A DNA stretch of 64,000 bases from Gracilariopsis chorda (Eukaryota > Rhodophyta > Florideophyceae > Gracilariales > Gracilariaceae): contig NBIV01000074.1 of NCBI GenBank assembly GCA_003194525.1, positions 1 through 64,000 on the forward strand, given 5' to 3'. The first letter of the stretch is position 1. The number at the start of each line of letters is the position of its first letter. Made by a program: the position numbers and the translations under genes. This document shows, piece by piece, positions 1 through 54,229 of this stretch. The notes beneath the pieces were generated by a model that had not been told where the DNA came from, did not search any database, and saw only the letters and a program-made list of their open reading frames with translations.

Positions 1-2365
1 TACGTTACCACATCTGTGGAAAGCCTTGTTAAGGCGCACCGAGTAATCGGTCTCGGTCTCTCCAGCACGCTGGCGTGTATCTCGCAAAGCGAGGATAGCC
101 TGCTGAATAGCGGTGTTGGTGGCGTAGGAGCGCAGAAGATACTGCACAGCCTCCGGCCAGCAAGTAACTCCTCCCTCGGAGGCGCGAGAAGATCCTCGGA
201 CAGAGGTGTATTGGTCCTCGGCCACTCCCCGTAAGAAATACGGTAAAGCCAAATAGGCTTGTCCCTCATTCATACCGAGGATATCGGCCTCCGCTACAAA
301 GTGGGATAGGAAATCCAGTACTAGGACTGGGTCCTCTCCAGTAAAATACTGGTTGCGGAGCGAGAGCTGCATTCGCTTAATGCATTCTCGCACCTTTCCC
401 GTACCACGGGGCGTACGTCCAAGTGACGAATCTTCAAGCCGGTAGTACCGGTATGATAAAAGCTTCCGGTAATCCGGGTTTGTCGGTTTCAATTCCCGGA
501 GACCGGGGTGTCTTCTCCCCTTCTGGCGGGTTCGGACCACACCTTCAGTGGCCGATGACCGCTTCGAGCGGGAGGAGTAGCCTCGCTTCTCGTCCTCCGA
601 GTCGGAGTCCGAGGAGCTCGAGCTAACCGAATGGTTTCGGGATGAGTCCGACGATGTCGAAGAATCGGAGTCCGAATATTTTCGGTGGTGTTTCCGTCGG
701 TGACGGCGTTTCTTCTTCCCAGCAACCTGGTCGTTGTGCGATGCCTCGTTTACCGGATCACCCGGGGATGGTTTGTCCATGAGGACGAACTGCTCCAGCG
801 TCTCCAGGCGGGCACCAATCCGATCAAATCGGGCTTCAACTCCTTCGATGAAGGCGGCGGGTTGTCCCAAACTCTCCAACACGGAGTTGACGTCAGACCG
901 TAAAATACGGAGCTCCTCGGCGACCTCCTTTACGGGGGTTGCCGAGACCACCTCTTGGAGGGATTTTAGTTCCCCTACAAGGGTGTCATGGGCGGTCCAC
1001 AGAGCGCGGACCTGGGATTCCAGGGAAGTCCCTGGGGGGTGTTATCGCCCGTTCCACGGGGGCTTGAAGCCGCGACAGCGGGAGCAGGCCGGGGTGCCTG
1101 GGGCACTGCGGCAACAGCCGGAGTCGATGCTGCATTCCCCTGCGGGGGTGATAACGAGGGCAAAAGGAGGTTCCGGGGTTCCCGGTCGGGGGTATCATTC
1201 CGCGATGAAGCGGCGCCAGCACGGCTGGAACTTGTCCGTATAGGGATACGGGGTACGAACCGAACTTCGGAAGTGTCCGCGTTGTCGCGGGAGCGACTAC
1301 GCGTAACCACTGGCTCCGCGTCGGAGGGATTTCTCGACATGAGAAAATACCGTTACGACGGGAAACGATCACGGAACTTCCGGTGAATGAAAACAAACCT
1401 CGTAAGAGGGAAAGCAAAAACCGATTCTAAGTCAGGAGACCACTTTGTGGTGCAATGCCCCAAAGGGGAAAAACACCGAAAGACGTCCGGGATCTTCCTC
1501 TCACGAGGTGAACCCAGTTGGGTAGAGCCCTCCCAGAGGTGTCACGGCGAAGCCGGTTTGTAAGACCAGGGACACCTGTCGCGACTCGCGCAGGGAGGTG
1601 AAGGCGAAGAATCGGTATCCGCGTGAGCGGGGTGTGATCCTCAGTAGAGGTATGTTTCCACGTAAGTGGGGGTGTGTGAGCGGATGCGCACACGAGGGCC
1701 GCGGATAGCGGGAGGTGCTGCCCTAAAAAGGGGAAAGAGGAAGGACGAGTGGGTCGCGAGAGCGACGAGTAGATACGGCAATGCCGGTGGACAGGACTCC
1801 CTATACAGGGCGAAACACCAATATGATTGGAACAATTAGTACTCCCAATGATGGGTCTCCTTTAGATGTGCAAGGGGGGTGAACTTCCGTACACTACGGT
1901 GCTTCCCTCCAAGGAGGAGTTGAGAACACGCGGAGGCGGTAAAGCTCAGAGCCAATTCCCCAGGTTGGGGTCCCTTGTTGGGGAAGGTTTACTGGTGCGA
2001 CGGCAGTGCGCCGTCGCACTAAGTACTAGCTTCCCAGAAATGGGTGTGAAAATAATAAATAAAATTAACTAAAATACTCCACATTCCGTGGCAACATCCA
2101 CTACTGTGGCCAACCGCCAATTGACCCAAAACCGTGTCCCACGTGTCCATACCCACCATTGTGGGGCGTAGTTCATATACACACTACACAACCGATAATA
2201 TCGGGAAAGCGTTCAAGTACCCAGAATCCCTCCCTGAGGGCGTTGCACTTCAAGTGGTCTTCCAGAGAGATCCGAAAAACCGTCTGCAGTTAGGAACTGA
2301 GGTCACAAGTCGAGCACCTGTGTGGACACGGCTGCCCACCTTACGGCGCATATCACATACAGTTG
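1..2365. repeat. dense array of short hairpins
   Basis: Nearly every 25-35 bases there is a perfect palindrome with a 4-9 bp stem and a loop of 1-7 bases. Examples: 8-19 CCAC-ATCT-GTGG, 23-35 GCCTT-GTT-AAGGC, 38-51 ACCGA-GTAA-TCGGT, 62-73, 81-93, 170-182, 229-243, 338-352 (CCAGTA-AAA-TACTGG), 898-910 (CCGTA-AAA-TACGG), 1440-1450 (CCAC-TTT-GTGG), 1458-1468 (CCCC-AAA-GGGG), 1658-1669, 1753-1766, 1958-1970, 1995-2019 (9-bp stem), 2152-2165 and 2192-2204. I count more than 70 by eye. Stem sequences differ from one hairpin to the next, so this is not a tandem repeat. The array continues without a break from the Gag-like coding part into the non-coding part. Its density drops sharply near 2365. Confidence 0.8.
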
Positions 2366-2390
2366 TCATTGTGATGGTTTTCTAGAAATT
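1..2390 (-). mobile_element. LTR-type retroelement fossil: Gag-like region and leader
   Basis: Read on the minus strand, about 1340 down to 1 has protein-like composition: a Pro/Ala/Ser/Arg-rich N-terminal part, a stretch of basic residues and Ser/Asp/Glu-rich runs, then a helical region with the feel of a retrotransposon Gag capsid. The part to the right (about 1400-2390) has no protein signal and would be the leader or LTR side. No RT or integrase lies in the window, since the element runs off the left edge. It is broken in at least one place. Family assignment (LTR retrotransposon, Gag) is by protein style only and could be wrong. The whole segment is packed with small hairpins, annotated separately. 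Confidence 0.5.
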
Positions 2391-3037
2391 GACGACGTTG
2401 AAGTAGTTGAATGTAAACTTGATGAGAGTATGGACTGGCATTTGAGCTCTACCGGAGTAAACAAGACTTCGAAATACGTAGTGGACTAAGAATCTTGACA
2501 AAATAACCTTGTTTAGAAAATTTGTGAGGCAATCAATATTGGCCTCATATGAGGCCATTGGTCGAATAGACACTAGGGTTATCTTGCTATTCTTCTCTTA
2601 CGCTACAGTAGTTAGCTATGTATTCCATATTGTTGGTGTAAACTATTTGCTACAGATTGAAGCTATTTAAGGGTGCTTGATCAATGTTGAACCACAGAGA
2701 ATAGTGCGTACGGCGATGGTTATGGACGATAACAGATCGGCGGAGGTGTTCAACCGATTTGTTTGTGTTCATAGATATTGTAAAGCGGTACCAACAGAAA
2801 TGGTATTGTGTGAACCCATTGGGGTTGTAGCTCTGTCCAAAGATGTAGCCGATAACAAATTACTGTGGGTAAGCGTCCTGCGTTGAAGTATTGTCAAACT
2901 CTTGGTTTACTGATAAGGATGAAGGCTCTGCCAGTAGTGTAACGACCTTGTGCGGTAAAATGAATGTTTGAGACGGAGTTGAGAAGCTGTGATGAGTATT
3001 TGTTGCTATTTTCATCGAGAGGTTTTGAACTTATTAA
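2391..3037. other. unassigned DNA, no gene seen
   Basis: The sequence becomes AT-richer and the dense hairpins stop. The open frames here are short and have no recognisable domain. It is probably spacer between the retroelement fossil and the Harbinger element to the right. Confidence 0.5.
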
Positions 3038-3333
3038 GGTTGGCCGGAAAGTTTGTTAGTTTTGTATATCTACTTCGCGTCAATGTGTTGGCCGCAAATT
3101 AAAACATGTTCCTCTGGTCGGCTGCAAGTTTCCGCCCATACTGACTGCAACATGCCTCACAGTCAGAGAAACGCTGTCGTTCTGCACAACGACGGCGTGT
3201 CTCGACTGTGACTCCGTACGGAAACATGTGTACTTGCTTCCCATCGCCAACCCAGCTTTCAACGCACGTCCACCCGCGCCGCTGAAACAGCTTAGAAGCC
3301 CAGTCTACGGGCAGCGAGCCGCAATAGTTTTCT

Positions 3334-4311
3334 ATGTCGGAAGGGGATGAAGGGGTTGGGGTGACTAGCGCACCAGAGCAGGTGCAATCTCCCATACAAA
3401 CGGTAATTCCGGCACCTGTATCACAACCTGGAGAGACAAGCTGCGTTAATTCACTGATGGCGTCTGGTGCACGTGTGGTGCAGTCTGAGAATTGGGCGGA
3501 AGCACAAGAGCGATCTTCGCTTCCGCAAAGCCGCCGCAAAATACACAAACGCCGTAATGTAGTCGGTGCTGATGCCCTTGCGTGCATGACAAGTAGCTAC
3601 GGAAAGCACTTTACTGCATATTGCAGAAAGAGAAAGCAAGCGGTTCAACAACGGGTCCCAGCCGCTGTGTGGAAGCTGGTATATAAGGACTACTTGGATG
3701 ACGGTAAAGCGAAATGTGAGATTGCAGGAGTTCGATTCGACAAAGATGTGCCACAGGAACGTACACTGCAAAAAGCTCTGCGCAGTGCTCTAGATGACGT
3801 ACAAACTGGAGTATCTGATGGGCCGGGGCAGCTATGTGCTTTGCAAAATGATGACCTTATGCAAAAGTTGAAGGAGTCGGATACTTACAACAAGAAGAAA
3901 ATGGGGGATTTTCGCGAGTCTCTGATCTCTCAAAGCACTGGGAAGTCGGACGATGCGGGTTCGGAGTCTGTGATAGACCTTGTGCCCGAGGAAAAAACGC
4001 AGGTGGAAGAAAAGATTTCTTTAGCAAACCCGTCTAAAAAGAAGCTCTTGAAGGACACGGTGACTGCGATCTCATCTATGGTTACAGTGGTTGAGGAGAA
4101 GTCAGACAATTTGTGCCGAGCAGTAGAAAAGCAAACAAAGGTGTAAGAAAATGACGTTGTTAGCAGGCAAACGCTACGGGAAGAGCAATTGAAATCTCTG
4201 CAGAGCCAGGAGATAGATAGACAGATCAAGCGATTGATTTTACTTCGTGAACAGGGTATCATCTCTGAGGTTGAATTCACAGAGCGTGTGAAGGTCATAG
4301 CGGAACTTTAA
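3334..4311 (+). pseudogene. Harbinger companion protein, one in-frame stop
   Basis: An ATG at 3334 opens a 270-residue frame that stops at TAA 4144-4146, but the same frame stays open and protein-like for another 54 codons to a stop at 4309-4311. The N-terminus is acidic and Pro/Ser/Gln-rich. A basic patch (SRRKIHKRR) follows, then a helical segment around residues 95-170, then a Lys/Glu-rich C-terminal part. The segment after the TAA reads as an amphipathic helix ending in an REQGIISEVEF-like motif, reminiscent of the short C-terminal SHOCT-type oligomerisation module. I infer that this is the DNA-binding or accessory partner of the neighbouring transposase. The terminal stop overlaps the transposase stop in a shared TTAA at 4308-4311. 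Confidence 0.55.
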
Positions 4312-5453
4312 GCGCCCCACTCTCCGTTTCTGTCACTGTCCTGAACGTTAATTGAAAAGTCCCTTCTCCTTCTGTGTAGAAAGTTGGTCAGGATTGCAGC
4401 ACTGGTAAACATATGGGAGAAGACACTTCGTCTATTAGGGCATGTATCCAAGAAGCGCCTAAAGAGTTGTTTGAGACCACCGATTCCCCACTCCACTGTC
4501 AAGCTATATCCCGCATGTAGTTTGTTAAAGGCTCGTAGTACTGGGTCTTCGTCTACATTTGCCAGCTCCCTGGCATCAATGCGCCGTAAGATGAAGTGAT
4601 CTAGGCCAAGATACCCGGGATCACCAAGCAAATACTCTACAGGATGTGGGAAGTCATGATCTACTGCGAAATGCTCTTGCCAATTTCGACTTAACCCCAT
4701 GTCTCTGAGTACAGTCACATCATGATAAGAACCAGCATATCCGGGCGCTATATAAATAAACATACCATTATGATCTATCACTACAGCACTATTGAAACAG
4801 TACATCTTCTTCCTACCATTAAAATAAGCGCTGTGGTGTCGATCATGTGGTCGCCGTATGCGACAAAGTGTCCCGTCTACAAAGCCAACACATCCCGGAA
4901 AGAAATGTATCCTGCTTCGTTGCTGCTGTCTTTCAGCAGCGGTTGGCCAACTGATCTCTGATGCCATAGATTCGTTAATTATGCCACAAACGAACATTGC
5001 ATCATCCCTCAATGATGTACAACTATAGTTCCAATACGAGGCTTCCTCTCTCACGCCATTTCTTCCTCGCAGATACATAATGCAAGATAAAAGCCGTTCA
5101 CGGGGCATTAGTTTTGAGGATGTACCAGCCAGACCACGCACATTGTTGGTATGTCTTGCCCGTTGAATAATTATCGGGCAAACAACTGCACACAAGGCTT
5201 CAAAATCTGCGGGATAGAGCCCGGCATTAGTCTTTAACAGCGACAGGTGTCCCTGAATGAGATTATTAAGTCTCGATATCTTCGGAATGAGGGGATTAAC
5301 TGAAAAATCGCCGTCATAGTTGTTGTCATCTAGCTCAGACAATACAACTGCACAAGCTTGTACTGTAGACACACAACCTTGTTATAGTAACAATGCGTGC
5401 CCACCAACAGACGTAGCGCATGAAACATATTCCTCCTCCTCCTCTATGTCCAT
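4308..5453 (-). pseudogene. Harbinger DDE transposase, one in-frame stop
   Basis: This is a DDE_Tnp_4 / PIF-Harbinger nuclease-type transposase, which cuts and rejoins the element ends in the nucleus. Catalytic blocks are in order: GFVDGTLCRIRRP (first Asp), GSYHDVTVLRD (second Asp region), LLGDPGYLG, and VEWGIGGLKQLFR (Glu). The best ATG is at 5453, giving an acidic N-terminus, but the frame meets TAA at 5382-5384 after 23 codons. Beyond that stop the frame is open for over 350 codons to 4308, with all core motifs intact. An internal start downstream could still give a shortened protein, but the N-terminal helical region would be lost. A subterminal repeat block lies upstream of its start. 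Confidence 0.8.
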
Positions 5454-9333: not shown

Positions 9334-12300
9334 TTTCCTTTCAAGTCAAGCACACTGGGAGGGTACATCAATAGCACTCGCACGCTTTCAACATGGAGAA
9401 GGGGTATTTGGTTGCTAGTCATGAATGCAGGAAGCTTGAAATGTGAATGGACCCCTTTTTCGGATTTCTTCAACGGTTTGTGTTGCCAGAAATAAAGATC
9501 ATAACTTTGACTTGATACGTACCATTCTTGAAAACTCCTCTTTTCTCTGCTACATTTTATGCTTCTCCACTAGGGTTACAGGGATATGAAAAACAGATGT
9601 GGACAGACCGTTAGTCTCATTGCCGCATGAGCAATTTTGTCTGTAGAAGAAAAACAAGGAAATGGAGGCTACCTTCGAATATTTATCCTTTCCAGCCTTC
9701 TACCCTTCTTCCAGAATGTAGCGGGTGGCAAGCAACTCACCCTGGGCAGCCACGCAATTCCGGTAGTCCTTCAACTTTGCGCTTCCCTCCCGCAAAGCGC
9801 ACACAGAACTAGCTGATGCCCTTGCATTTGGACTGCTGGTTACAAATTAAAGCCTCACCTGGTTCTAAACCGCCATTGCATCAACAGTCGAGAGTGTGCA
9901 ACACGGCCGAGCCATCATCACCCATCACCTACAATTAACACCTGCGCGAGTTTCCCAACCAATCATTCTCAGAGTAATACATTCTCTTGATTCTGCTATT
10001 TGCTCTTGATGTACTTATCAAGTCAAGCTGTCTTAGTTTTGTGTTATTACTCCATTACTACATACAATGCAGTAGAACTGGTACCGTAGTTAAAAACAGA
10101 CAGTCGAACTACTAAATTCTTCTTGACTTCAAGCTTTCCACATCCGCATCAGTCTACTATTTGCTCCAATTCATACTATAGTGTTGGTGTAATATGAGGG
10201 TGTGTGAGGGATGCTGTGGCAAGATGATTCTCTTTAGGTGCCACAGATGTGCTAACGGTTACCAACGTTAATCATCGTTTGCCCTCTGAAAATGGTTAGA
10301 TATGTTCCTACACCCTGTTTCTCAGAGATTAGATGTCTTTTTCTTTAATGTTCCTGCTCTTCAAAGTTCTTATTCCTGATTCGAACTGGTTGGTTACTCA
10401 AAGCGGTCCAGTGATTGTTCTAAATGGCAACATGCAATGCCGCGCAAAGAGATTGGATTTTGGAGAGGTTTATTGGTTGGTGGATACGGGTAGTGCCGGT
10501 AAGGCCCAGACACCGATATTAGCTACCAGGTGAGGTGGTTAGCTGGGAGCACAAGAAGCTAGTGGAGGTTCAATCAGACGGCTACCCGTTTCTCGGGTTT
10601 ACTCAGCTAGCCTGGGTCCTTAAATGCGGTCTCTGGGTGGCCTAGCCTTCTGCAACGTCTCTGCATTAAGCTACTTGCGTGTCATGCACCCAGTTCAGAA
10701 ACTCCCAAACTGGACACATGTGCTTCTCTATCTAGCAACAACATAAGCTACTGAATTTTGAACACCCAATCCAGGTTGAACACGACACTAGGGTGCAGAA
10801 GGCTAATCATCTACTCGAGGTCGGTTACCCTAACAGACTCAATCACATCTCCACTTTGCTTACTCGTCCAGCGTAACTTCATTGAGCTTGGCACACTTCA
10901 GCGGGTAGAACAGCATGTGCCCTGAATGGGAATGTGCTCCACCTTTGTGATGATTCCTCAGTATCCGGCGCTGAGTGACATAGAATTATTGCGCGAGATG
11001 GAGTTCGAAAAGGAGAAGAAACTACTCACAGGAAAGCAGGTTCCTCTAAGCGCCCATGGCAAGCGATGTGATGGGCGCTATTAAATTCTGATGTGCTGCT
11101 ATAGAACTGTCTGTAGCAGTCATTCCACTCCAAAGCCATTCGAAGGGAATCGGTAAAAAACTGGGAACAAAACGAATCCCCATAGGGATAATCATAAAGG
11201 GAATAGAATTACGGCTCAGTCATGGGGTTTCCCAAAGTTGCGAAAGGTCTTTGTGATTTGAACTAGTCATTGAGAAAGTTTTGTCACTTTTCTTGTATTT
11301 TTAAGCTTTCAGGAGATCACCGTTGTCCAATGTCAATGCTGAGTCATATTTTGAGAAGAAGTTTCTGTGAAAGTCTTGCTCTCCGTTTGAAACCCGCCAG
11401 AGAACTCGTTTCGCACTCCTTCATTTTTCCTGTTTGCGGAAATTGGTACGCTTGGCAAGCTAGCGAGAGCAAAGTGCCTGTTGCACCGTTACAAAGAACT
11501 CTATAAAGACAACGAGAACGACATGATGAGACTCCTCCAGCTGTGGGGTTTACTACAGTATTCGTCACGTTTAATTTCTACAACGACGCAGTATGAAACG
11601 GAATGAAGTTCGGTAAGTTTTGTGCTTATGTGTCGTGAACATCGTTACGAGATGCAGTAGAATATTGTGCAATATAAGTTTTGTTTGCTTCAAAATAGCG
11701 CCATCCGAACCTTCGTAGCGTGTTTCAATGTCGGCGAGGCTTCGATATCATTGTTGGAGGTTAGATGAGCGAAAATCCCGCGATTGTCATGTCCCACTTT
11801 TCTGGACAAAATGGTTTCTAACCGCTTTTGGTTCGATAACGCTGACGAGATCTGGTATACGAAAATAGACACGTGAAGAACCATGACTTTTGACGTCGTC
11901 CGTACGTCCCATTTCGGAGAAGAATCTCATTCTTCGGATCGGACCGAAGAACTAGTTTATGGGAACCTATGTTTATTCCTGTTTCTTCACTGCGAACAAA
12001 CAGAAGAGAATTTACGATACAAGCTCTCATCCAGAGAGCTTCTTATAACGTAGGCAAATAAGACATGATTCTGACAAGTTTCTCAGAGTAAAGTTCAAGA
12101 CAATTATGGCTGACTCCAGAAAAATTAAACGTTGCACATTGTCTCTTATGAATATGGTGTTCCATTGTCCGAAGCTTGTTCATCCCTCATGTGTAAAGCT
12201 CATGAAGCTACAAGAACGTCATGTATGTCTGTAGCCTAAACTGCCCTGTTTTGATACACAGCCAGGACAGTGTGAAGAAGGAGAAGCTCATACATTGATT

Positions 12301-13096
12301 CTTGAACAGCATCCGAGTGTCAATAGAAATCTGACTTGATGTAGTATACAAGGACAAGTGGAGGAGGTTGGAACCTATATTCAAGAAGTGTATACCGTCT
12401 CCGTACCGTTGTAGAGGAACAGCTCCAGCAGCGTGATGCCTGCTTGGCCGCCGTGAGGGCCAGAAAGGCGAGATGCAAACTATTGTATAACAGATCAGTA
12501 TTCTTGACAGAAAATATTGATTTCAATATATTAGAAAATGTTCCAGTGTACAAATACATACAAATAGTGAAGGTTAAACGCGAAGTGTTGGAATACAGCC
12601 CACTTGCACAACTGAACGATGAATTTTTTCGTTGGTACCAAAGGTACCGTTGGCACCAACAGTATCCAGGATCCTCTGGCACCTCGATTCCTTCGAGTAA
12701 CTCGTTCCCAGCTAGAAGCGCACGCCCTCGTGACGCCAGCACCCGCTGCTTGCGTTGAAGGGTCCGCCTATGAGGCCCCAACAGTCTGTTCAACAAAGGA
12801 TGCTATTCTCTTCTTGTATCTACAGATAGCAATTCTACAGACAGGTTTGTCCTGCTGGTGCCTCGCCAGGTTGTCTAGTTCACATAGGACATACTTCGAG
12901 CCTTCAATATGAGCAAATGGGGCACTGCAGTGCATTTCTGTGGAGGGCCGAAATCACTATATTAAGCTCTCTCCTCAATTCGCATCGGCTGGGAAGGAGA
13001 CAGTCAAGTCTGCGAACCAAAGGCAGCAGAAGAAGCCGGGAAGAAGAAAGAACAAGTGAGAACAAGAGACGTGAATAGTAACCAATCCGTTTCATT
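9334..13096. other. long stretch without a recognised gene
   Basis: I see no open frame with domain-like or codon-biased character in these 3.7 kb. Around 12631-12660 there is a GGTACC/TACCGTTGG-type repeat (GGTACCAAAGGTACCGTTGG) resembling the TACCAACGGTA motif found elsewhere in the window. The last 100 bases before 13097 are homologous to the leader of the paralogous gene at 17722 and therefore belong to the next gene's 5' UTR or promoter. Confidence 0.4.
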
Positions 13097-13801
13097 ATGG
13101 TTATCATCAAGGCCTGCATCGACGCCCTCCGCACCGCCGTCATCTTCGGTGTCCTCATCTGTATTATCTCAAGCAGCCACGCTATGACAACCGAGACAGT
13201 GAGCGTGCAGCCTTCTGAAAGAATCATCGGCAGACTCACCTGTCCCCTTCGCCGACCGTCAGCTGAGTGTCGTGCCATGCGCGAGGTAGAGCGCAGTCAG
13301 AGAAGTCAGATTCGCACTTTGGTGCGCAACTTTAACAGACATGCTGGACGAATTGGTAATGACTGTGCATGTGCGGTTATGTTTGCTACTTGTTTCGCGC
13401 CCACTGGAATTGGCGGCTGTGCGGCATGCGCAGCGCTGTGCGCTCAGGTGAACACGTTTGCCCAAACGGCTGCGGTGAGGTCTTCAGGGCGCGCTATGGC
13501 AACAGCTTGTCTGGGTAAGCTGGGGTGGAACAATGCGATTCGTGTGTTGGATACAGAGCCAAAGGTTGAAGAAGAGCTTGCTCCAGCTATTAAGCCGGTC
13601 ATAACAACATCCCGAATGACCGGTGATGCATGCTACAACAACATTCATCCAACTTACAAACGACTTCCTGGGTGTTTGAAGCAATATGTGGATAACCCGA
13701 ACAAGGAGAACTATGAAAAGGCTATTAGAATCCTGAGCTATTCTTCTTCGGTGTGTCATAACAAGGGTGCATCGGAGAAGCCGTTTGTGGATTTCATTTG
13801 A
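13097..13801 (+). CDS. secreted Cys-rich protein, copy A
   Basis: Predicted 234-residue secreted protein of unknown family. Residues 1-30 form a signal peptide or membrane anchor (hydrophobic AVIFGVLICII followed by SHAM). The mature part has a basic segment with RRPSAECRAMREVERSQRSQ, then a Cys/Ala-rich core around residues 94-125 (CACAVMFATCF...GGCAACAALC), and a C-terminal region with spaced cysteines, DACY...GCLKQYV. This start is chosen because the paralog at 17722 aligns from exactly the same ATG, while copy A has stops in frame just upstream. The two copies are nearly identical through the middle but diverge in the signal region and in a short patch around 13600-13660. Disulfide bonding in the secretory route is likely; function is unknown. 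Confidence 0.75.
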   Translation: MVIIKACIDALRTAVIFGVLICIISSSHAMTTETVSVQPSERIIGRLTCPLRRPSAECRAMREVERSQRSQIRTLVRNFNRHAGRIGNDCACAVMFATCFAPTGIGGCAACAALCAQVNTFAQTAAVRSSGRAMATACLGKLGWNNAIRVLDTEPKVEEELAPAIKPVITTSRMTGDACYNNIHPTYKRLPGCLKQYVDNPNKENYEKAIRILSYSSSVCHNKGASEKPFVDFI

Positions 13802-14807: not shown

Positions 14808-16313
14808 ATGATGGCATCTGATCTGTCGCCGCTCTCCTTCTCCTCAGTACCACAAGCCGCTCTCACTCACTTCCCAGATTCCCATGCAAAGCACCTCATT
14901 CAAGTTTTCGACGTTCCTGCTGATCGCATTTCCTCTTGCACTATTATGCACGACAATGAGAAACTGTTCAATGCCATTCTTCTGTACGCCGCGCTCTGTC
15001 CAAATCCAGCCAAGCCGAACCTCGCCCGTCGATTCTACATTAATTCCTCCGACCCTTACGTTAAGGGCGATGACGATAAAGATGTCAGTCCTACTAGATC
15101 ACATCGTTCGAAGCATCTGCACTCCCGGAGCATTGCTCCTGGAAAAGGAGAAAGACGTGCGGCGGCTCCAGTGCCTAAGCTGAAGATGGATATTGGCACT
15201 ACTGTGGTGTACTGGCCACCCCCAGAACATCTCGTTCCCAAATTCTTAACTTTGAATGATAATCATGAGCCGTACAAGCTTCCGGATGGAATGGAAGACA
15301 GTATCAATGTACACATCATGCACTACGAAGTAGGAACTCCTCAGAAGAGCATACTTCAGAATGATATGAGTTCTCTTCATGTTGCTCGCGTGTCTACTCA
15401 TCATGGTGATGAAGCTTTACAAGTGTTCTTGCAAGGAATTTTGCAATGGAGTGTTGATAGAAGCAACCCGGATCATAATGGACGGAAGTATAACTTATAT
15501 CGTTTTAAGGTTGACAGCTGTGGTGTAGGGAGTTGGGAAGAACAAGGCTCTCGTCGTGGACGTCCCCATGAATCCGTTTTGCTCAGAGAGGGACAGATGG
15601 GCGCTATTCTAGAAGACATAGAACAGTTTCTGCATCCAGATGCTAAAGACTGGTACATACAACATGGCCTTCCGCACAGGAGAAGCTTCTTGTTTGAGGG
15701 AAGTCCTGGCACAGGAAAGACTAGCACGATTCGGGTGATTGCAGGACAGTATTCGTTGTCATGCTGTTTTCTTTCGATGACGAATGAAAAATTTAGCAAT
15801 CAGCTATTGTGTGATGCGTTAAGTGAACTGCCGTCTAACGCTTTACTCGTTCTCGAAGATGTGGACGCACTGTTCAATGCAGATAGAACCAGTGCAAGCA
15901 GTTCGTCGCTCACGTTCTCAGGGCTGCTCAACGTGTTGGACGGGGTGACCAGTGTTGAAGGACTGATAACTATCATGACGACAAACCATGCCAATCGACT
16001 GGACCCTGCTCTCATTCGTGGTGGTCGAATAGACAGGCGCTTTTGCTTCACGGCTCCATCTGAGAAAGAGCTGGCTGCTCTGTTCAGAATGTTTTACGAG
16101 GATGCCCCAGAAGAGCTTGTGAACCAGTTTGTTACGGAAGTGGCCGAGTGGAAGAAGAATGGTCACGAAGCTACAGTCGCTACTCTGCAACAGTTTTTCA
16201 TCAGTTTTCGTGGTCGTTCGGCTGAGAAATGCGTTGAGGGGTTACAGGTGTTTCTCTCAGAGCAACCTGCAGCAACTTCTGCAGGTGAAACGGACTCGCA
16301 GACACAGAAGTAA
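14808..16313 (+). CDS. BCS1-like AAA ATPase
   Basis: 501-residue AAA+ protein with the layout of the BCS1/AATP family. A BCS1_N-like region covers about residues 1-240. The ATPase core follows: Walker A in FEGSPGTGKTS (about residues 305-313), Walker B in ALLVLEDVDALF (about 345-355), sensor-1 MTTNHANRLDPAL, and an arginine-finger segment IRGGRIDRRFCF. BCS1 of mitochondria folds the Rieske protein across the inner membrane; plant relatives sit in other membranes. Which applies here cannot be told. The expected N-terminal membrane helix is absent from this frame. A hydrophobic stretch beginning at ATG 14567 (MFGELAVALVALSASFFLG) just upstream could be a first exon, with a strong pyrimidine-rich acceptor ending at 14847 (CTTCTCCTCAG), but the matching donor is weak. 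The core call is solid and the 5' end is uncertain. Confidence 0.85.
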   Translation: MMASDLSPLSFSSVPQAALTHFPDSHAKHLIQVFDVPADRISSCTIMHDNEKLFNAILLYAALCPNPAKPNLARRFYINSSDPYVKGDDDKDVSPTRSHRSKHLHSRSIAPGKGERRAAAPVPKLKMDIGTTVVYWPPPEHLVPKFLTLNDNHEPYKLPDGMEDSINVHIMHYEVGTPQKSILQNDMSSLHVARVSTHHGDEALQVFLQGILQWSVDRSNPDHNGRKYNLYRFKVDSCGVGSWEEQGSRRGRPHESVLLREGQMGAILEDIEQFLHPDAKDWYIQHGLPHRRSFLFEGSPGTGKTSTIRVIAGQYSLSCCFLSMTNEKFSNQLLCDALSELPSNALLVLEDVDALFNADRTSASSSSLTFSGLLNVLDGVTSVEGLITIMTTNHANRLDPALIRGGRIDRRFCFTAPSEKELAALFRMFYEDAPEELVNQFVTEVAEWKKNGHEATVATLQQFFISFRGRSAEKCVEGLQVFLSEQPAATSAGETDSQTQK

Positions 16314-20742: not shown

Positions 20743-22953
20743 TCAGTATACTGCTGAAAGCCATTCCCTGAAATCTCTCCATTTAGGGCATCCATCGTAC
20801 AAAACGGCCCCAAGCGGTTCTTTCATCAATCCGAGACGCACGGGAAGACGAACTATTTCCAGAATAGGGTGCGCAACCCAGTGGGGTAGTGCACTAGTGT
20901 AGGATGAAGCGATCACCCTTCCAACTGCAATGTCGCCTTGCAATGTGTGAGGGGCAAACAGGCCTTCACGTTGAACCGTTGATATTGTTTTCACTGTTGA
21001 CGGTCCATCCAAAGTCCGAAGGATATCTCCACGTTTCACGTCTATTGCAGGTTTAAGCTGTCTGTTGGCGTAGATGTAATGCTCAGCTGAAAGTTCAATG
21101 GAATGGTTATGCTCCGATACAATTCGAACAAATGGATAGGTTCCCAACGGCTGTCGGTGTGAGAACAAATACACTGTGCTCGATTTGGATTCGGACGACA
21201 TGATACGATGTCCAGCCTCGAGATTCGCCATGCGAATGTCCTGTCCGGAAGAAAGGTGGATGACGGCTGAGCTTGGGAAACAACCATCGATGTCTGGAAC
21301 ACCAGAAGTTGCTGGACTGTCCTGCGGAATTTCTTCTTCAATGATCGTTTCTGGGCTTCCAGTAACTCCCATGACGTCAAGGTCGAATGGCATCGTGTTC
21401 GTCGAAGATGGAAGAACTGGTCCGCTTAGTGCTTCAAAGTCGTCAAGAGGTATCAGTGGTGACGAAATAGGATCGTAGAAAACAGGGCTTGCTGATACCT
21501 CCATTGTGGGGGTAGATGACGGGACGATGTCCTCACTCGCCGCCGCCGTTCGCGGGATTGATCTTGGCACAGACGGACTGGTTGATAATGATGGGCTTGG
21601 CAACGCATCTTGCGAAGACCCGCCGACACTCGGACTTATGGCTGGCATGATGTCAGAAGGGGCGGCGGAAGTGGTTTGTCCGTGGGGAATGGTATTATCG
21701 TCTTCTACCAGGGGCGATGTTTGAACGTGATGGTCTGGTGTTAATATTTCACTGAGGATTACGTCTGGCGTCTGAGTGAGTAAACTGACTTGTTCCCCGG
21801 TGCTTGAATGCGTCGCGGTGTCACTAGGTGTTTCGGAGGCGTTTGGACTTGTCTCCAGGTCTGTAGATCCATGAAACTCGAACTCTTCAATTGGCGGTAT
21901 CTGAGATGGTTGTGGAGAGTAATCTAGGTCCGTAACAGGCGTGGCGTCGAGTTCCTCCGGAAGAGCCTCCGCAGTCGAAGAGTATGTAGGAGTTGACTCA
22001 GCTTTTCTCACAAGCATTTCCGCATCTGCGTCAAGATCGCGTGGACCATACAGTAATGTATTCGGCATAACCGAGGAAACAAAACGAGTTGAGGGTTTAA
22101 GTTCAGCGTCCTGGAACACGAGCGGACCAGAAGATTCGACCACATCAGTATCAAAGACGTATGACATTGGTGATGTCTCCACAGAAGGGTTTTCTACCGC
22201 TGCAGAAACGAGGGGAGTAATCATTTGGTTTCCAGAATCCCCAACATACGGGGCGATTGTTGGTCGCTGAGAGCTAGTTAAACACGGTGCACTGCGGTTA
22301 TAGAGGGTTTCTTTTGCAGGGTCATTCGGTTCTTGAAGACGGTCTGAAAAGAGCACTCTGTCAATGATGTGGATATAGCCGTTGGACGTGCATATGTTCT
22401 GCATTTCGGGTATGAGTTTGGCGTCTGGAAGATCTGGGTGTCTATCAATGAGTCTAAGCCCATCTCGGTGCAGGGGGAGGTTCGAGTCAAACGTAGCAAA
22501 TGAGGAACGTTGCATTATGGCGGTAGAAGTCATCTGAGGTGCCACTATGTGATACAATGGCATCCTGAACAAGTAGTCAATCGGGTTTGCAAAGCGCTTC
22601 GACAGGAATGTTACTACATCATAATAGGTCTGGTTTTCTTGGTTTCCTTCGAAACCCAGATCCCGCATAGTGCGCATAATTGCTTCATCATTTGGTGCGA
22701 AGAAGGTAATGCCACCTGGTATGGTGACGTTAAGAACTTGTTCGTTGTTTCCAGCTGCAAGAATATGAGCAAGAATGTTGAAGTTGGTGCCATTACTGTC
22801 AAAAGTGTTTGCCGTTGTTAAACCCTCTTTGAGAATGAACTCGAGAACAGTTTTACTGTCGCATTCATCTGGAAACGGCTGGGGAACGCCTTCAGACGTA
22901 CTGACGACAGAGAACCAGACTATGAGCGACAGGATTTTCTCAAAGTACTTCAT
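20743..22953 (-). CDS. FAS1-Hint protein, long form
   Basis: 736-residue predicted secreted protein. Residues 1-22 form a signal peptide. About 30-205 is a fasciclin (FAS1) adhesion domain, with the family pattern of a GITFFAPNDEAI strand, YHIVAP, and a closing NGYIHIIDRVLF. Residues about 206-555 are a long Ser/Thr/Pro/Glu-rich linker, likely O-glycosylated. The last 180 residues are a Hedgehog-type Hint (Hog) domain: GCFPSSAVIHL puts the nucleophilic Cys at 558, the block-B histidine lies in ELSAEHYIYA (Ser replaces the usual Thr of TxxH), followed by LRTLDG and GLFAPHTLQGDIAVGRVIASSYT, close to the Hedgehog pattern up to the WxAH segment. In Hedgehog, Hint cleaves itself off and attaches a sterol to the N-terminal part; whether that happens here is unknown. 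A paralog lies upstream in the same orientation. Confidence 0.88.
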   Translation of the reverse strand: MKYFEKILSLIVWFSVVSTSEGVPQPFPDECDSKTVLEFILKEGLTTANTFDSNGTNFNILAHILAAGNNEQVLNVTIPGGITFFAPNDEAIMRTMRDLGFEGNQENQTYYDVVTFLSKRFANPIDYLFRMPLYHIVAPQMTSTAIMQRSSFATFDSNLPLHRDGLRLIDRHPDLPDAKLIPEMQNICTSNGYIHIIDRVLFSDRLQEPNDPAKETLYNRSAPCLTSSQRPTIAPYVGDSGNQMITPLVSAAVENPSVETSPMSYVFDTDVVESSGPLVFQDAELKPSTRFVSSVMPNTLLYGPRDLDADAEMLVRKAESTPTYSSTAEALPEELDATPVTDLDYSPQPSQIPPIEEFEFHGSTDLETSPNASETPSDTATHSSTGEQVSLLTQTPDVILSEILTPDHHVQTSPLVEDDNTIPHGQTTSAAPSDIMPAISPSVGGSSQDALPSPSLSTSPSVPRSIPRTAAASEDIVPSSTPTMEVSASPVFYDPISSPLIPLDDFEALSGPVLPSSTNTMPFDLDVMGVTGSPETIIEEEIPQDSPATSGVPDIDGCFPSSAVIHLSSGQDIRMANLEAGHRIMSSESKSSTVYLFSHRQPLGTYPFVRIVSEHNHSIELSAEHYIYANRQLKPAIDVKRGDILRTLDGPSTVKTISTVQREGLFAPHTLQGDIAVGRVIASSYTSALPHWVAHPILEIVRLPVRLGLMKEPLGAVLYDGCPKWRDFREWLSAVY

Positions 22954-28479: not shown

Positions 28480-31400
28480 ATGTCGCATGCCAGCAACCGC
28501 CGCGCGATGACAACGCCGCCCCCCTGTCGTCCACGGAATCCACGGCAGTGGAAGATGAAAAAATCCAAAAACAACAGCGAAAGAAGAACATTACGCATAC
28601 TCCAGCTTAACTGCAGGAGCTTACTTGCGACAGGGAAACGAAGCGAGATCGCGCGCTTAGCTCATGCTTGGAAGGTGGACATCCTTTGTCTTCAGGAAAC
28701 TCACTTCCAGGAGTTAGATCGGACACCTCGAATCCAAGGTTTCAAGTTAGTAGGAAGATGTGACAGAGATGCCGACTTTGGACAACAAGGAGGAAGGGGA
28801 GGAGGTGTGGCAACGTATCAACGAGACGACCTCACAATAGACCTATTGACAGACGAGCCAATTCTGAAAGGATTAGAGAGAGTGACAGTACTAGTCAGGT
28901 CTCCAAAAGGTCCGCTCTCAATTGCTAATGTATACGTTCCTCCACAACTGCACGCTACAGAGTGGTACAAGGCATTGGACGACCAGGATATGGTAGTAGC
29001 CGACAGCAACACATGCGGGTCGTGGTATCCTTCAAGGGCGGAAGCTTCTGGAATCGCATTAGAAGAGTACCTCGGAGAAACCGAACGCGTCGTCCTCAAC
29101 GTAGATGGGGTCGCAACCCATAGGGATCCAAGGCATGGAACGCAAAGTGCGATAGATATAACGGCGATACCAGAAAAATGGGTTCCGCTAACCACATGGG
29201 AGGCATCGGACCTTCCATTTTCAGACCATCACCCGTGCCTTGTGTCCATAGATATTGGGCGTAAGTCTTGCGTCCAGAAGAAATGGAAGACTTGGAGTAT
29301 CAAAAATGCTGACTGGACCAAATTCCAAACGTACGTAGACGATAACCTTAGCATGATTGAAGATAATAGTATAGAGAGATTAGACGAACATTATCATCGC
29401 TTTTGCGAAGTAGTGCTAGGAGCAGCAAGGATGCATGTACCATTTGGAAGACGGAGACGCGAAGCACCATGGTGGAGTCCGGAAGCATCGGACGTGATCC
29501 AGCTGAGAGCAGAGAAATGGAGAAAGTATCGAAACGATCCGAGTGCAGGAAATAGGTTAGCATTACAGCAGGCCCAAGAACATGCGCTAATAGTTATTGA
29601 CAGACTCAAACGGGATGCATGGCAGGAACTCACAAGTTCACTACACCCAAACGATAATGATGCAAAGTTATGGCGAATAACGAAGGCAACTGAAAAGGGA
29701 AAATGGGAACGTCCATCACTTTGTCCTCCAGGGGGCGAACAATGGTTTGATAAGAAGAGAGCGAAGTGGTTTGTCAAATCAGAGATCAGAAGTGTGCGGA
29801 CACACGTCAAGAACAGAACAGTGAGAAACGAGTACAGACGGGCACTGGACACATATCATAAACATGCAAAAGAGTCAGTGATAGGGAAGGTATTTCAACC
29901 TCAACACCTTGATGTGGAGTTGAGAAATATGACCCCGAAGAAGGTAGGAGGCCCGGATGAGATACAGATAGCTTTCCTACAGAATCTTCCTCCAATTGGA
30001 AAAGAGTGGCTACTGCACCTTATAAACAGAAGTTACAAGGAAGGGCGGACTCCGGCAAAGTGGAGATTATCCGGACTCATTCCAATTTCTAAACCAGGCG
30101 TCAAGGGAAAGTTTCGGCCGATATCTGTCACATCGGTCGTGGCACGGCTTGCGGAACGGATGGTTAACAGGGAATTCATGAAATGGTTGGAGCCAAAACT
30201 CCCTGCGTGTCAAGCAGGATTCAGAATGAGCCGAACGACAGATCAACATATTGCTGCCCTTTGCAAACATATAACGCATGGCTGGCAGCAACGCCGACAG
30301 ACATTAACACTTTTCTGTGACTTCTCTAAGGCTTATGACTGCGTTCAACATCACCGACTGTTAGTAAAGCTGGCAAATCTTGAGTGTCCGACTTACCTCT
30401 GGAGATGGATAAGAGCATTTGTAATGGACCGCAGATGGACTTGCAGATGGAACACAGCTGATACCAGACCTTATGTAGTAGCTCAAGGTCTACCACAAGG
30501 CGGGACTCTTTCCCCAGGACTAGAGCTTGCATATGTCGCAGATCTTCCCGAGCGAGTGCAGCAGGGTGATTCAAGAATTGCGGTAACAATGTTCGCCGAT
30601 GATGTATCCATATCAGTGACACAACGAAAACTGGATTTCTGTGCCCATGTTATTCAATCTGCAGTACAAAGACTGGAGCAATACTGCGAAGAAAATAACA
30701 TCAAGATGAATCCGAAGAAAACCACACTAGTTCCGTTCACATACGCACAATGGAAAAAAGACCGTAGCAAGTACGAAGTACAAGTAGCTGGAACGTGGAT
30801 AGAGCTTTCAGGTTTCACGAGATTTCTAGGAGTCATCATGGATAGCCGCCTTACATTCCACCATCATATACACAAGGTGGCTGCACGGTACAGGTCACGG
30901 TCGCGCATTCTTCGGTGTCTAACTGGAACCACGTGGGGGGCAGACTGGGTGACCATGTACGTATTTAGAATGGGTTTCGTTGAACCCATTGCAAGGTATG
31001 CAGCGTGCGTAGTCATACCGAATGCTCTATCTTGTGCAGTACAAGAATTGGAAAGAACCCGAAATGAAGCAGCCCGAATTCAAACAGGTTGTACACGATC
31101 TTCCCCAGTGAGAAAACTTAGAAACCTTTTGAGTCTACCCTCTCTTCAAGAAATTGCGGCTGCACAGGCAGCACAGTTATACGAGAAAGCGAAACGATGT
31201 CGTGCAGAGGATCCAACACCTATTGCTTTAGCACTTAACAGAGAGTCTTCGGCACGTATTCGCAAGAACAGGTCGTCATTCAAGAAGACAGCAGAGCAAT
31301 TATTGGCTGAGTGTGGTTTATTGCAGCTCAACAGAGCACCACTCCCAACAGAGCTAGGCTTGGGCCAAACAGGAGGCATCAGCTTCTGTTACACGTCATG

Positions 31401-32577
31401 CACTAAGGAAGATTCGGTTGAACATCAGCGGTACCAGGCTCTACAAACATTGAAAAAGCTCCCACCGGCCGATTGCGAGATCTGGAGTGATGGCTCAGTG
31501 AGGTGACCGAAGTGGCTTCAAGAAGCACAACCGTTACGAGCAGCTGTGGAGTGGGACGAAGGATGGTACGCGGGATCGATTGATTATCCGAACAGCTTCA
31601 CGGCCCATGCGGAAGTTGTTTCCAACTTTCAAAACAAACATAATCGGACACCGAGTATAGTGATACGATATGACGATGGATTTGTAATGGGATACGAAAT
31701 AGACGCTGAACATCAAGAGTTACTCGATGCCGATGGACATAAGCTTAAATGGCGTGTACTTAACATTTCCGAGGTTGGGGGAAGTGCTTTTGCGATCTGG
31801 TGGAATGCATCAATTACCCCCCAAACTGGCATGGAGCCCGCAGGGATAGGGACAACGTCGTTTTATGCGGAAACATGGGCAATATATCACTCACTTCAAG
31901 TTGTTAAGGGAAGAATAGGATCTGGGTGGACTGGACACATAAGGCTGATAACGGATTCTCAGAGCGTGGTTGAGAGTATCCGAGGAGCTGTAAGAGATCA
32001 GCCGTATTCTGTGCAACAAGTATCACGTACATTGTACGAGATCGGCAAAACATGCACTATGGATATGGTCTGGGTACCGAGCCATTGCGTTTTGCACCGC
32101 AACGACCTTGTAGACAGTTTGGCCAAAGAAGCATTGGAACTACCTCAGCATTTGCAGATAAACGTGCCAGTGGACTACGCAGAAGTGAAACGAAGAGTGA
32201 AGTCTCGAACACGATGTAGGAAAATTATTCAGTCTATACCTCAGGAGCTCACACAAGTGGTATCACAAAGAGAAGCGGAAGTTACATTGTCGCAGTTTGC
32301 AGTAGGCCATACACCTCTTTTGCACCCGCTCGGAACGCACTTGTACAAGCGAAGAATCGTGTGTACTTGCCGACCGGGAGTACTGAATGATGTGGACCAC
32401 TTTGTTCTAAGGTGTCCTTTGCGAACAAGGTCTCGCCGAACCTGCCTGCCAAGTATGCGAGAAAGACACGGGATGGATGTTGGAGAAATCATCAAAAAGT
32501 GGCCGGAATGTATGCTGGTCTTCCTAGCGAGAGAACGCTTTTTTCACATGAAGCGATCTACACTATGTAGGAATTAG
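28480..32577 (+). pseudogene. LINE polyprotein: endonuclease, RT, RNase H, with one in-frame TGA
   Basis: From ATG 28480 the frame runs 1008 codons to TGA 31504-31506, then continues in the same frame to 32577. Endonuclease: RILQLNCRSLL, ILCLQETHF, and the SDHHP motif near 29220. RT: FSKAYDCV..., LPQGGTLSPG, MFADDVSI. RNase H: first Asp in IWSDGSV just before the TGA, Glu in FYAETWAIY, Asp in ITDSQSVVES, and HRNDLVDSLAKEA. A zinc-type motif CTCRPG...DHFVLRCP follows. Between the first RNase H strand (SDGSV) and the second (VGGSAFAIW) lies an extra 90-residue segment, 31507-31770, with Tudor/Agenet-like text (EWDEGWYAGSI ... IRYDDGFVMGYEI). The TGA could be a CGA to TGA transition. Confidence 0.85.
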
Positions 32578-53950: not shown

Positions 53951-54229
53951 TTGGCCTTTGCAACCATCTTGATACTTTGGGGTGATCCTTGGGTGTCCCT
54001 GTGCCTACCGCTCCACACATTCTTAAGCTTACTAATCATTTTCATCACAATGCGACGCATCTTTTTCGAGACTTGTTACAAGGCAAGGGAATCAAATTGA
54101 TTCGTTTCTTCCTGAGTCGCTTCCGACTTTTGGTCGTTGGGAGCATAATTCGGCTGTGCCGCACCACATGTCGGGCGGTCCTGAGCTGGGTCGCTGAAAA
54201 TGGAGGGTACGTCCGACGGAAATAATGGA

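Follow-up and report, generated by a model that had tools for sequence, protein, structure and literature searches.

The 64,000-nt stretch of Gracilariopsis chorda DNA analysed here, hereafter the window, opens with a retroelement packed from end to end with short perfect hairpins, and the question it raises is what maintains these hairpins and which molecule or protein makes use of them. A sequence-only reading of the window had described the element as a fossil and had offered three possible causes, namely a genome-wide folded RNA, protein-binding hairpins for packaging, and template switching that perfects quasi-palindromes. A comparison of positions 1-2400 with known RNA families returned zero matches up to an E-value of 1, and the titles and abstract openings covered by our literature search contain no report of a hairpin-saturated retroelement.

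The element and its copies

Window positions 1-2252 align at 99.5% identity, with 10 mismatches and one gap, to positions 2504-252 of another, complete copy of the same element, L031, which serves as the reference for most hairpin counts below. L031 has an open gag frame of 724 codons and a pol frame of 1853 codons, the latter with Pfam matches to RVT_1 (2.5e-36), RT_RNaseH (4e-36), Integrase_H2C2 (9.6e-13), rve (6.5e-11) and Chromo (2.3e-9). The assignment to the chromoviruses comes from other copies, through RT, RNase H, integrase and a C-terminal chromodomain in L031 and flanking LTRs in L044, and the window copy itself ends before pol. The LTR repeats measure 806 bp in L038 and about 804-807 bp in L044, an element of 9.7 kb. 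The gag of L031 has no Pfam match at E 0.01; its homologues comprise 41 matches, 11 of them with a precomputed PF03732, and the six that carry an organism name are all from Agarophyton chilense, at 44-62% identity. Gag contains a CCHC zinc knuckle, CHLCYAHGHTSPQC; in an alignment of 19 gags, its C, C, H and C residues are either invariant or conserved to at least 90%.

A search of the genome (91.3 Mb in 1081 contigs) yielded at least 44 matches to positions 1-2252, the window itself included, of which at least 31 (at least 30 without the window) are 98-100% identical over the whole of 1-2252; among the matches listed, nine more cover the full stretch at 93-96% and four are partial. A search with a pol piece found at least 91 RT copies at 97% identity or more, and the majority of those listed are free of stops across the match. 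The many near-identical copies, together with 99.9% identity between the LTRs of L044, indicate that the family is young; it is also abundant and recently active. The term fossil is therefore wrong for this element; the gag frame of the window copy is broken. The copies form one family with two architectures, with the antisense-ORF segment present in L031, L035, L039, L041, L042 and L043 and absent from L034, L036, L037, L038, L040 and L044.

Table 1. Coordinates of the element, of example hairpins and of other features (window positions unless marked L031).
Feature	Position	Strand	Remarks
Ty3/Gypsy chromovirus LTR retrotransposon, 5' part (LTR, leader, gag start)	1..2252	-	Contig start cuts the element within gag; hairpin-dense all along
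5' LTR, about 806 bp	1446..2251	-	Coordinates carried over from two-LTR copies via the L031 alignment
Leader, LTR to gag	1341..1445	-	gag ATG at L031:1164, window position 1340
gag, N-terminal part	1..1340	-	Frame broken by a frameshift near 1030 in the window copy (three-frame translations compared with L031)
Hairpin 5-3-5, CC..GG type	398..410
Hairpin 5-3-5, CC..GG type	898..910
Hairpin, stem 6, loop 4	1236..1251
Hairpin in LTR	1887..1899		L031 element position 352; inner pair altered in other copies, compensated in 4 and uncompensated in 5
Hairpin 5-3-5 in LTR	1958..1970
Exceptional longer hairpin, 10 bp, in LTR	1995..2019		Falls outside the short-hairpin grammar
Antisense ORF, 255 codons	L031:9109-9876	-	Between pol and the 3' LTR; no Pfam match
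Fasciclin domain joined to a Hint (hedgehog/intein) module	20743-22953	-	Pfam
Non-LTR retrotransposon ORF, endonuclease and RVT_1	28480-31506		Pfam
NB-ARC and WD40 repeat protein, 1178 codons	39425-42961		Pfam

Size, form and coding context of the hairpin excess

Positions 1-2365 contain 91 non-overlapping perfect hairpins with stems of at least 4 bp and loops of 1-7 nt, against a mean of 43.1 and a maximum of 56 in 200 dinucleotide shuffles, and 49 with stems of at least 5 bp (mean 13.2, maximum 23, again in 200 shuffles). With loops restricted to 3-4 nt, positions 1-2252 hold 63 hairpins of stem 4 or more against 14.2 (200 shuffles, maximum 25). The earlier figures of more than 70 palindromes and about 40 with stems of at least 5 were thus, if anything, low. 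Since 43 and 13 such hairpins are expected by chance alone in this stretch, not every hairpin is special.

The excess ends at position 2252, the outer edge of the LTR. Hairpins with stems of at least 5 bp number 14 against 11.6 in shuffles at 2253-4504, and 8 against 9.9 at 54200-56000, in the coding part of a gypsy element near 54 kb, which bears out the earlier statement that neighbouring regions, 54.2-56 kb included, lack this density. Over the remaining window, in 1-kb bins from after position 3000, the mean z is 0.18 and the maximum 3.8, at 12001. A mild excess (z 2.6-3.8 per kb) lies at 12001-13500, 15001-16000 and 50501-53000; these stretches may be what is left of related elements, or may have arisen by chance in a scan of 127 bins.

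Elsewhere in the genome, 14 stretches of 5.4-10 kb show the excess persisting through pol, and hairpins are present in the LTR, leader, gag, pol and the optional antisense-ORF segment. L031 carries 284 non-overlapping hairpins with stems of at least 4 bp and loops of 3-4 nt, covering 36.5% of its 9748 nt; when overlapping hairpins are counted, the number is 330, with about 88 expected by chance. The L031 family has a few hundred perfect mini-hairpins more than expected by chance.

In L031 the excess extends over loops of 1-6 nt and is by far the strongest at loops of 3 and 4, where hairpins with stems of at least 5 bp number 71 against 8.6 and 35 against 7.0, respectively. At loop 6, stems of at least 4 bp are still above chance (45 against 29.3). 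Stems of at least 5 bp are at chance at loop 0 (9 against 9.7) and loop 7 (9 against 8.3), and loops of 8-11 give 136 hairpins with 129 expected (sum of ten bins). Loops of 1 and 2 are readable as loops of 3 and 4 with complementary ends, so the preferred forms, written as stem-loop-stem, are 4-3-4, 4-4-4, 5-3-5 and 5-4-5. Triloop stems have exactly 5 pairs in 62 cases and 6 or more in 5; tetraloop stem lengths run 80, 25, 9, a lengthening close to the chance prediction; and stems of 6 or more at loops 1-5 are above chance at low numbers. Because triloop stems are capped at 5 and tetraloop stems are not, hairpin size is narrow without being absolutely fixed.

The stem base is typically CC..GG, in 81-87% of 5-3-5 hairpins (n=63) and 75-84% of 4-4-4 hairpins (n=91), and this clamp is not found in 4-5-4. 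Across the 284 hairpins, C-G occupies the two outer pairs in 79% and 70%, and 39-43% of the inner pairs are A-T. The inner pairs are variable yet Watson-Crick: the third pair in CC..GG boxes of span 12 (n=172) is Watson-Crick in 108, G-U in 3, A-C in 16 and otherwise in 45, and interior G-U in 5-3-5 is not above chance (9 against 14.2; A-C 17 against 16.2). Centre-to-centre spacing among the 284 hairpins peaks at 18-21 nt, most commonly at about 20 nt. Past immediate neighbours, the spacing lattice has a power of 97 against 75 +- 13 for permuted gaps, and long-range repetition of the 20-nt spacing is suggestive only.

Shuffles that preserve the codons leave the excess in place, with 54 hairpins (stem at least 4, loops 3-4) in L031 gag against 16.2 (maximum of 100 shuffles 26; z = 10) and 141 in pol against 43.6 (maximum 63; z = 14). 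No shuffle, whether dinucleotide- or codon-preserving, comes near the observed counts. Where synonymous codons in pol permit a CC..GG hairpin, the site is filled in 32 of 69 cases for 5-3-5 (1.7 expected), 49 of 109 for 4-4-4 (6.0), 22 of 81 for 4-3-4 (3.1) and 8 of 64 for 5-4-5 (1.2), a fill rate of 12-46% in which overlapping forms are counted separately and to which the protein itself may have adapted. At RT-integrase positions with at least 70% agreement among relatives, L031 deviates in 8 of 96 codons that hold 2-3 stem bases against 36 of 349 others. Taken together, the excess over codon-preserving shuffles, the filling of permitted sites and the undisturbed RT-integrase residues indicate that the hairpins appear to be written largely by synonymous codon choice.

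Evidence for selection on stems and for the strand that carries it

To L031 we mapped 38 copies (44 loci minus L031 itself and five duplicates of longer loci). Variants private to one copy are taken as mostly post-insertion mutations plus some assembly errors, and variants shared by at least three copies as having passed through replication; variants in exactly two copies (0.0175 per site in stems, 0.0240 outside) are excluded from the test. Sites with fewer than eight copies are dropped, and pol is therefore represented by about a dozen copies. Private variants are equally frequent in stems and outside them (0.170 and 0.169 per site). Shared variants, in contrast, occur at 0.0085 per site in stems, 0.0387 outside and 0.046 in loops, a depletion in stems of 4-5 times (Fisher OR 4.6, p 4e-12). 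The depletion is seen in the LTR and leader (0.0147 in stems against 0.0589 outside; p 0.011), in gag (p 0.012) and in pol (p 1.6e-8; 0.0116 against 0.0738 at third codon positions), and it holds at G/C sites and A/T sites taken separately. Control stems with loops of 8-14 nt, ascertained alike in L031, carry shared variants at 13/437 (0.0297) against 220/5013 (0.0439) outside (p 0.39), and the real stems, at 17/1985, differ from these controls with p 7e-4. Those shared variants that do fall in stems are concentrated at the loop-closing pair or close to it, and a few are compensated in some copies. Stems, unlike loops, are depleted of variants that went through replication, from which we infer that a single-stranded form is under purifying selection; the sense genomic RNA is the likeliest such form.

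The excess of paired compensatory substitutions for which the sequence-only reading had suggested looking does not appear: among these very similar copies, compensatory Watson-Crick doubles make up 7 of the 395 unique events in stems and 70 of the 3752 in controls. Within double changes only, 7 of 11 are Watson-Crick in stems and 70 of 175 in controls. A cell-weighted excess (18/242 against 1.7%) was rejected, as it counts inherited changes repeatedly and is gone with unique events.

The strand was addressed through the flanks of the hairpins. On the sense strand of L031, an A lies directly 3' of the 3' arm in 95 of 181 CC hairpins, whereas the mirror arrangement, a T before the 5' arm, is found in 23 of 181. 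This polarity has the same direction in four of four regions, with p 0.001 in gag and 7e-7 in pol; taken alone, the LTR/leader (11 against 3, p 0.06) and the antisense-ORF segment (7 against 1, p 0.07) are not significant. The pair beside the stem end is G-U in 7 of 185 CC hairpins and A-C in 33 of 185, shuffles giving 15.4% and 17.5%; since flank base composition predicts 7.3 G-U, the avoidance of G-U in the flank does not count as evidence separate from the 3' A. The flank polarity thus favours the sense strand in the L031 family, where it supports, without proving, sense RNA as the substrate. Because A-T is common in the inner pairs yet G-U is unused, simple RNA stability does not explain the pairing rule. 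For the L031 family, a protein that requires a helix of clean Watson-Crick pairs would fit, and a DNA form is also possible.

Folding energy, the other check proposed earlier, lies below shuffles on both strands in all eight settings, but only modestly so (mean z -0.77 to -2.09). Unrestricted folding gives mean z of -0.93 (60 nt) and -1.41 (120 nt) for the sense strand and -0.77 and -1.16 for the antisense strand; with pairs limited to 20 nt the values are -1.44 and -2.09 for sense and -1.26 and -1.89 for antisense. Twelve single 150-nt segments range from -3.45 to +0.05, and minimum-energy folds often hide mini-hairpins inside longer pairings. A genome-wide folded RNA fits these values weakly, the energy being low on both strands but modestly so, and a global fold is not our preferred explanation.

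Relatives, possible readers and known systems

Outside this genome, IMG/VR returned zero relatives with the pol piece or the gag alignment, and another search of it one distant relative. A further 23 Gypsy loci (L046-L068) lie within prokaryote genome assemblies and are read as eukaryotic contamination of those assemblies. Across these 24 relatives, a small and distant sample, z for stems of at least 4 bp with loops of 3-4 is highest in L064 (10.9; 88 against 33.1), L058 (7.7; 100 against 54.5) and L066 (5.8; 72 against 40.3), followed by L061 (4.3), L053 (4.0) and L046, L054, L057, L059 and L063 (2.8-3.4), the other 14 being at or below 2.4. L058 and L066 reach 1.8 times their shuffles, and besides these and L064 no locus of the 24 exceeds 1.55 times. 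At stems of 5 or more, further z above 3 are those of L053 (7.5), L063 (5.4), L046 (4.7), L061 (4.0), L054 (3.8) and L062 (3.6); L053, L062 and L063 are equally in excess at loops 9-10, so their excess is not specific. The excess of L046 (52% related) is weak, with 36 against 18.7 at stem 5 or more and 95 against 70.0 at stem 4 or more, and no kilobase stands out. Among 20 more, partly overlapping loci (stem at least 5, loops 1-4), z exceeds 3 in L075 on the contig of L064, in L076 and L072 on that of L066, and in L079 and L073, apparently on that of L058; the other 15 are at or below 2.0.

L064 (57%), a contig in a bacterial assembly that has matches on eight contigs, covers gag and the beginning of pol. 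Its excess spans all four kilobases, lacks the CC clamp and resides in odd loops: with codon-preserving shuffles, loops 1 and 3 give 54 against 23.6 in gag (z 6.6) and 28 against 13.2 in pol (z 4.4), whereas loops 2 and 4 show hardly any excess (z 1.8 and 0.6). Interior A-C pairs number 23 against 9.2 in centre-1 hairpins and 43 against 24.5 in triloops, G-U pairs 6 against 7.6 and 29 against 21.3. Beside the stem end (n=73), G-U occurs 16 times and A-C 8 times, so that G-U is not avoided there. These wobble signs are opposite to those of L031, and the sense-strand reading therefore does not extend to L064. Six further contigs of that assembly carry Gypsy pieces, possibly from a different host, in which there is no stem-5 excess (L071 reaches z 2.8 at stem 4), and a search of 11 assemblies with the L064 gag matched its own contig only. 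L064 thus has a strong excess with a different grammar, and the other Gypsy loci have a weaker excess or none.

Our leading explanation, held tentatively, is that the dispersed mini-hairpins on the sense genomic RNA are repeated binding sites, most likely for one protein, with Gag as the candidate. It starts from the observed excess and the avoidance of stems by replicated variants, and takes as substrate the sense genomic RNA that the L031 family supports. Each hairpin would act singly rather than via a global fold, and one protein would read it as a unit, as the narrow size, the clamp and the flank suggest. The conserved CCHC knuckle and the difference in grammar between elements point to the element's own Gag as the putative reader. 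Repeated Gag binding might then condense and select the genomic RNA at particle assembly, as the packaging signals scattered through the genomes of small RNA viruses do; hairpins would be narrow in size because they match the footprint of the reader, and co-evolution of Gag with its RNA would account for the other grammar seen in a related element. Of the causes proposed earlier, packaging through hairpins that bind a putative protein agrees best with the confined range of sizes, the CC/GG base, the A that follows the 3' arm and the selection acting on stems.

A more far-reaching version, possible though in our judgement doubtful, is that a genome-wide hairpin code in synonymous codons, arrayed at about 20 nt, lets Gag recognise the RNA of its own element, and that grammars diversify between competing retroelements. 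The CC-clamped stems of 4-5 bp with loops of 3-4 in L031 and the odd-centred palindromes of L064 would then be distinct recognition grammars. For RNA viruses, the argument for packaging via dispersed sites was built on stem-loops that are degenerate and comparatively few. In the present element the sites would number in the hundreds and follow an explicit grammar, and selection on them can be measured across dozens of young copies within a single genome; related elements with another, a weak or no grammar would serve as controls, and the element would show unusually clearly how synonymous codons can carry dense non-coding information.

Selection might instead act on single-stranded cDNA during reverse transcription, where hairpins in the minus or plus strand would protect the DNA, pace the polymerase or aid integration. 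We regard this as unlikely, even though within stems G-U is handled like any mismatch, single stem changes yielding G-U in 106 and A-C in 115 events (controls 965 and 1141), and although the A-C excess of L064 corresponds to G-T on the minus strand. The signs in L064 and the softer size limit of the L031 hairpins strengthen the cDNA alternative and weaken both the Gag and sense-RNA explanation and its more far-reaching version. The flank polarity of the L031 family, however, points to the sense strand, a polarity that plus-strand DNA would share, and to our knowledge no reader of such hairpins in cDNA has been described.

It is likewise improbable that the hairpins shield the sense RNA, a structured block about every 20 nt denying any long accessible stretch to small-RNA silencing or to host RNA-binding proteins, with stems too short for Dicer-like enzymes. 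The commonest spacing near 20 nt, the scarcity of stems above 5-6 bp and the presence of hairpins in every part of the element are as expected of a shield, but the CC..GG base, the 3' A and strict Watson-Crick pairing are not predicted, the lattice past neighbours is weak, and L064 uses odd loops.

A host RNA-binding protein acting in export, translation or stability could also read the hairpins, and the evidence for it is the same as for Gag, none of which singles out Gag. The difference in grammar between related elements and the gypsy element at 54 kb, which lies in the same window and has no excess, nevertheless make a host reader quite unlikely.

Template switching within quasi-palindromes during reverse transcription, which would write and repair hairpins free of selection, is very unlikely. 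Wobble-free Watson-Crick arms would follow from it naturally, and correction in replication would likewise reduce replicated stem variants. In nine copies, however, hairpins were gained 8-20 times per copy by one arm change and 0-6 times by two or more, and 0-2 stems per copy were kept through two changes against 14-53 lost by one; conserved RT-integrase residues are undisturbed at stems, and the CC..GG base and flank preference require extra assumptions. The earlier idea that template switching perfects quasi-palindromes is thus unsupported, as gains are mostly single substitutions and two-change stems are so few. An artefact of composition, codon usage or search freedom, which the G+C-rich element (0.57) could have fostered by raising the number of chance hairpins, is refuted for practical purposes by the codon and dinucleotide shuffles, the chance level at loops 8-11, the depletion of shared variants in stems and the loop 8-14 controls.

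Against this background, the Gag-binding explanation can be compared with known systems. Genome-scale ordered RNA structure is recognised by low genome-wide folding energy. Such structure across the whole genome is described for persistent RNA viruses (PMC7642675, PMC3950689, as far as the portions consulted go). The L031 family differs in that its folding energy is modestly low and its signal consists of local perfect mini-hairpins.

L031 resembles the chromodomain Gypsy elements, or chromoviruses, in its RT, RNase H, integrase and C-terminal chromodomain; the hairpin pattern sets it apart from chromoviruses as described in the abstract openings covered, where no such pattern is named. Ty3 and Ty1 are systems with genomic RNA structure and Gag-RNA packaging, and include Ty3/Gypsy relatives of the element studied here (PMC4974528). 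For Ty3 genomic RNA, the abstract of that report speaks of a core that is well folded and of dimer contacts through 5' palindromes, and mentions no genome-long hairpin array (PMC4974528).

The nearest described mechanism, going by the parts of the reports consulted, is packaging-signal-mediated assembly (PMC6281560). In MS2, satellite tobacco necrosis virus and the hepatitis B pregenome, many short stem-loops with a common feature recognised by the coat protein are dispersed genome-wide (PMC6281560, PMC3593212, PMC4751978, PMC7612645). Unlike these, the present case comprises 284 hairpins in 9.7 kb, of narrow size and with a base clamp rather than a loop motif, in an LTR retrotransposon in which Gag binding is putative. 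What it shares with dispersed packaging signals is many stem-loops with a common feature along the element, and stems under purifying selection.
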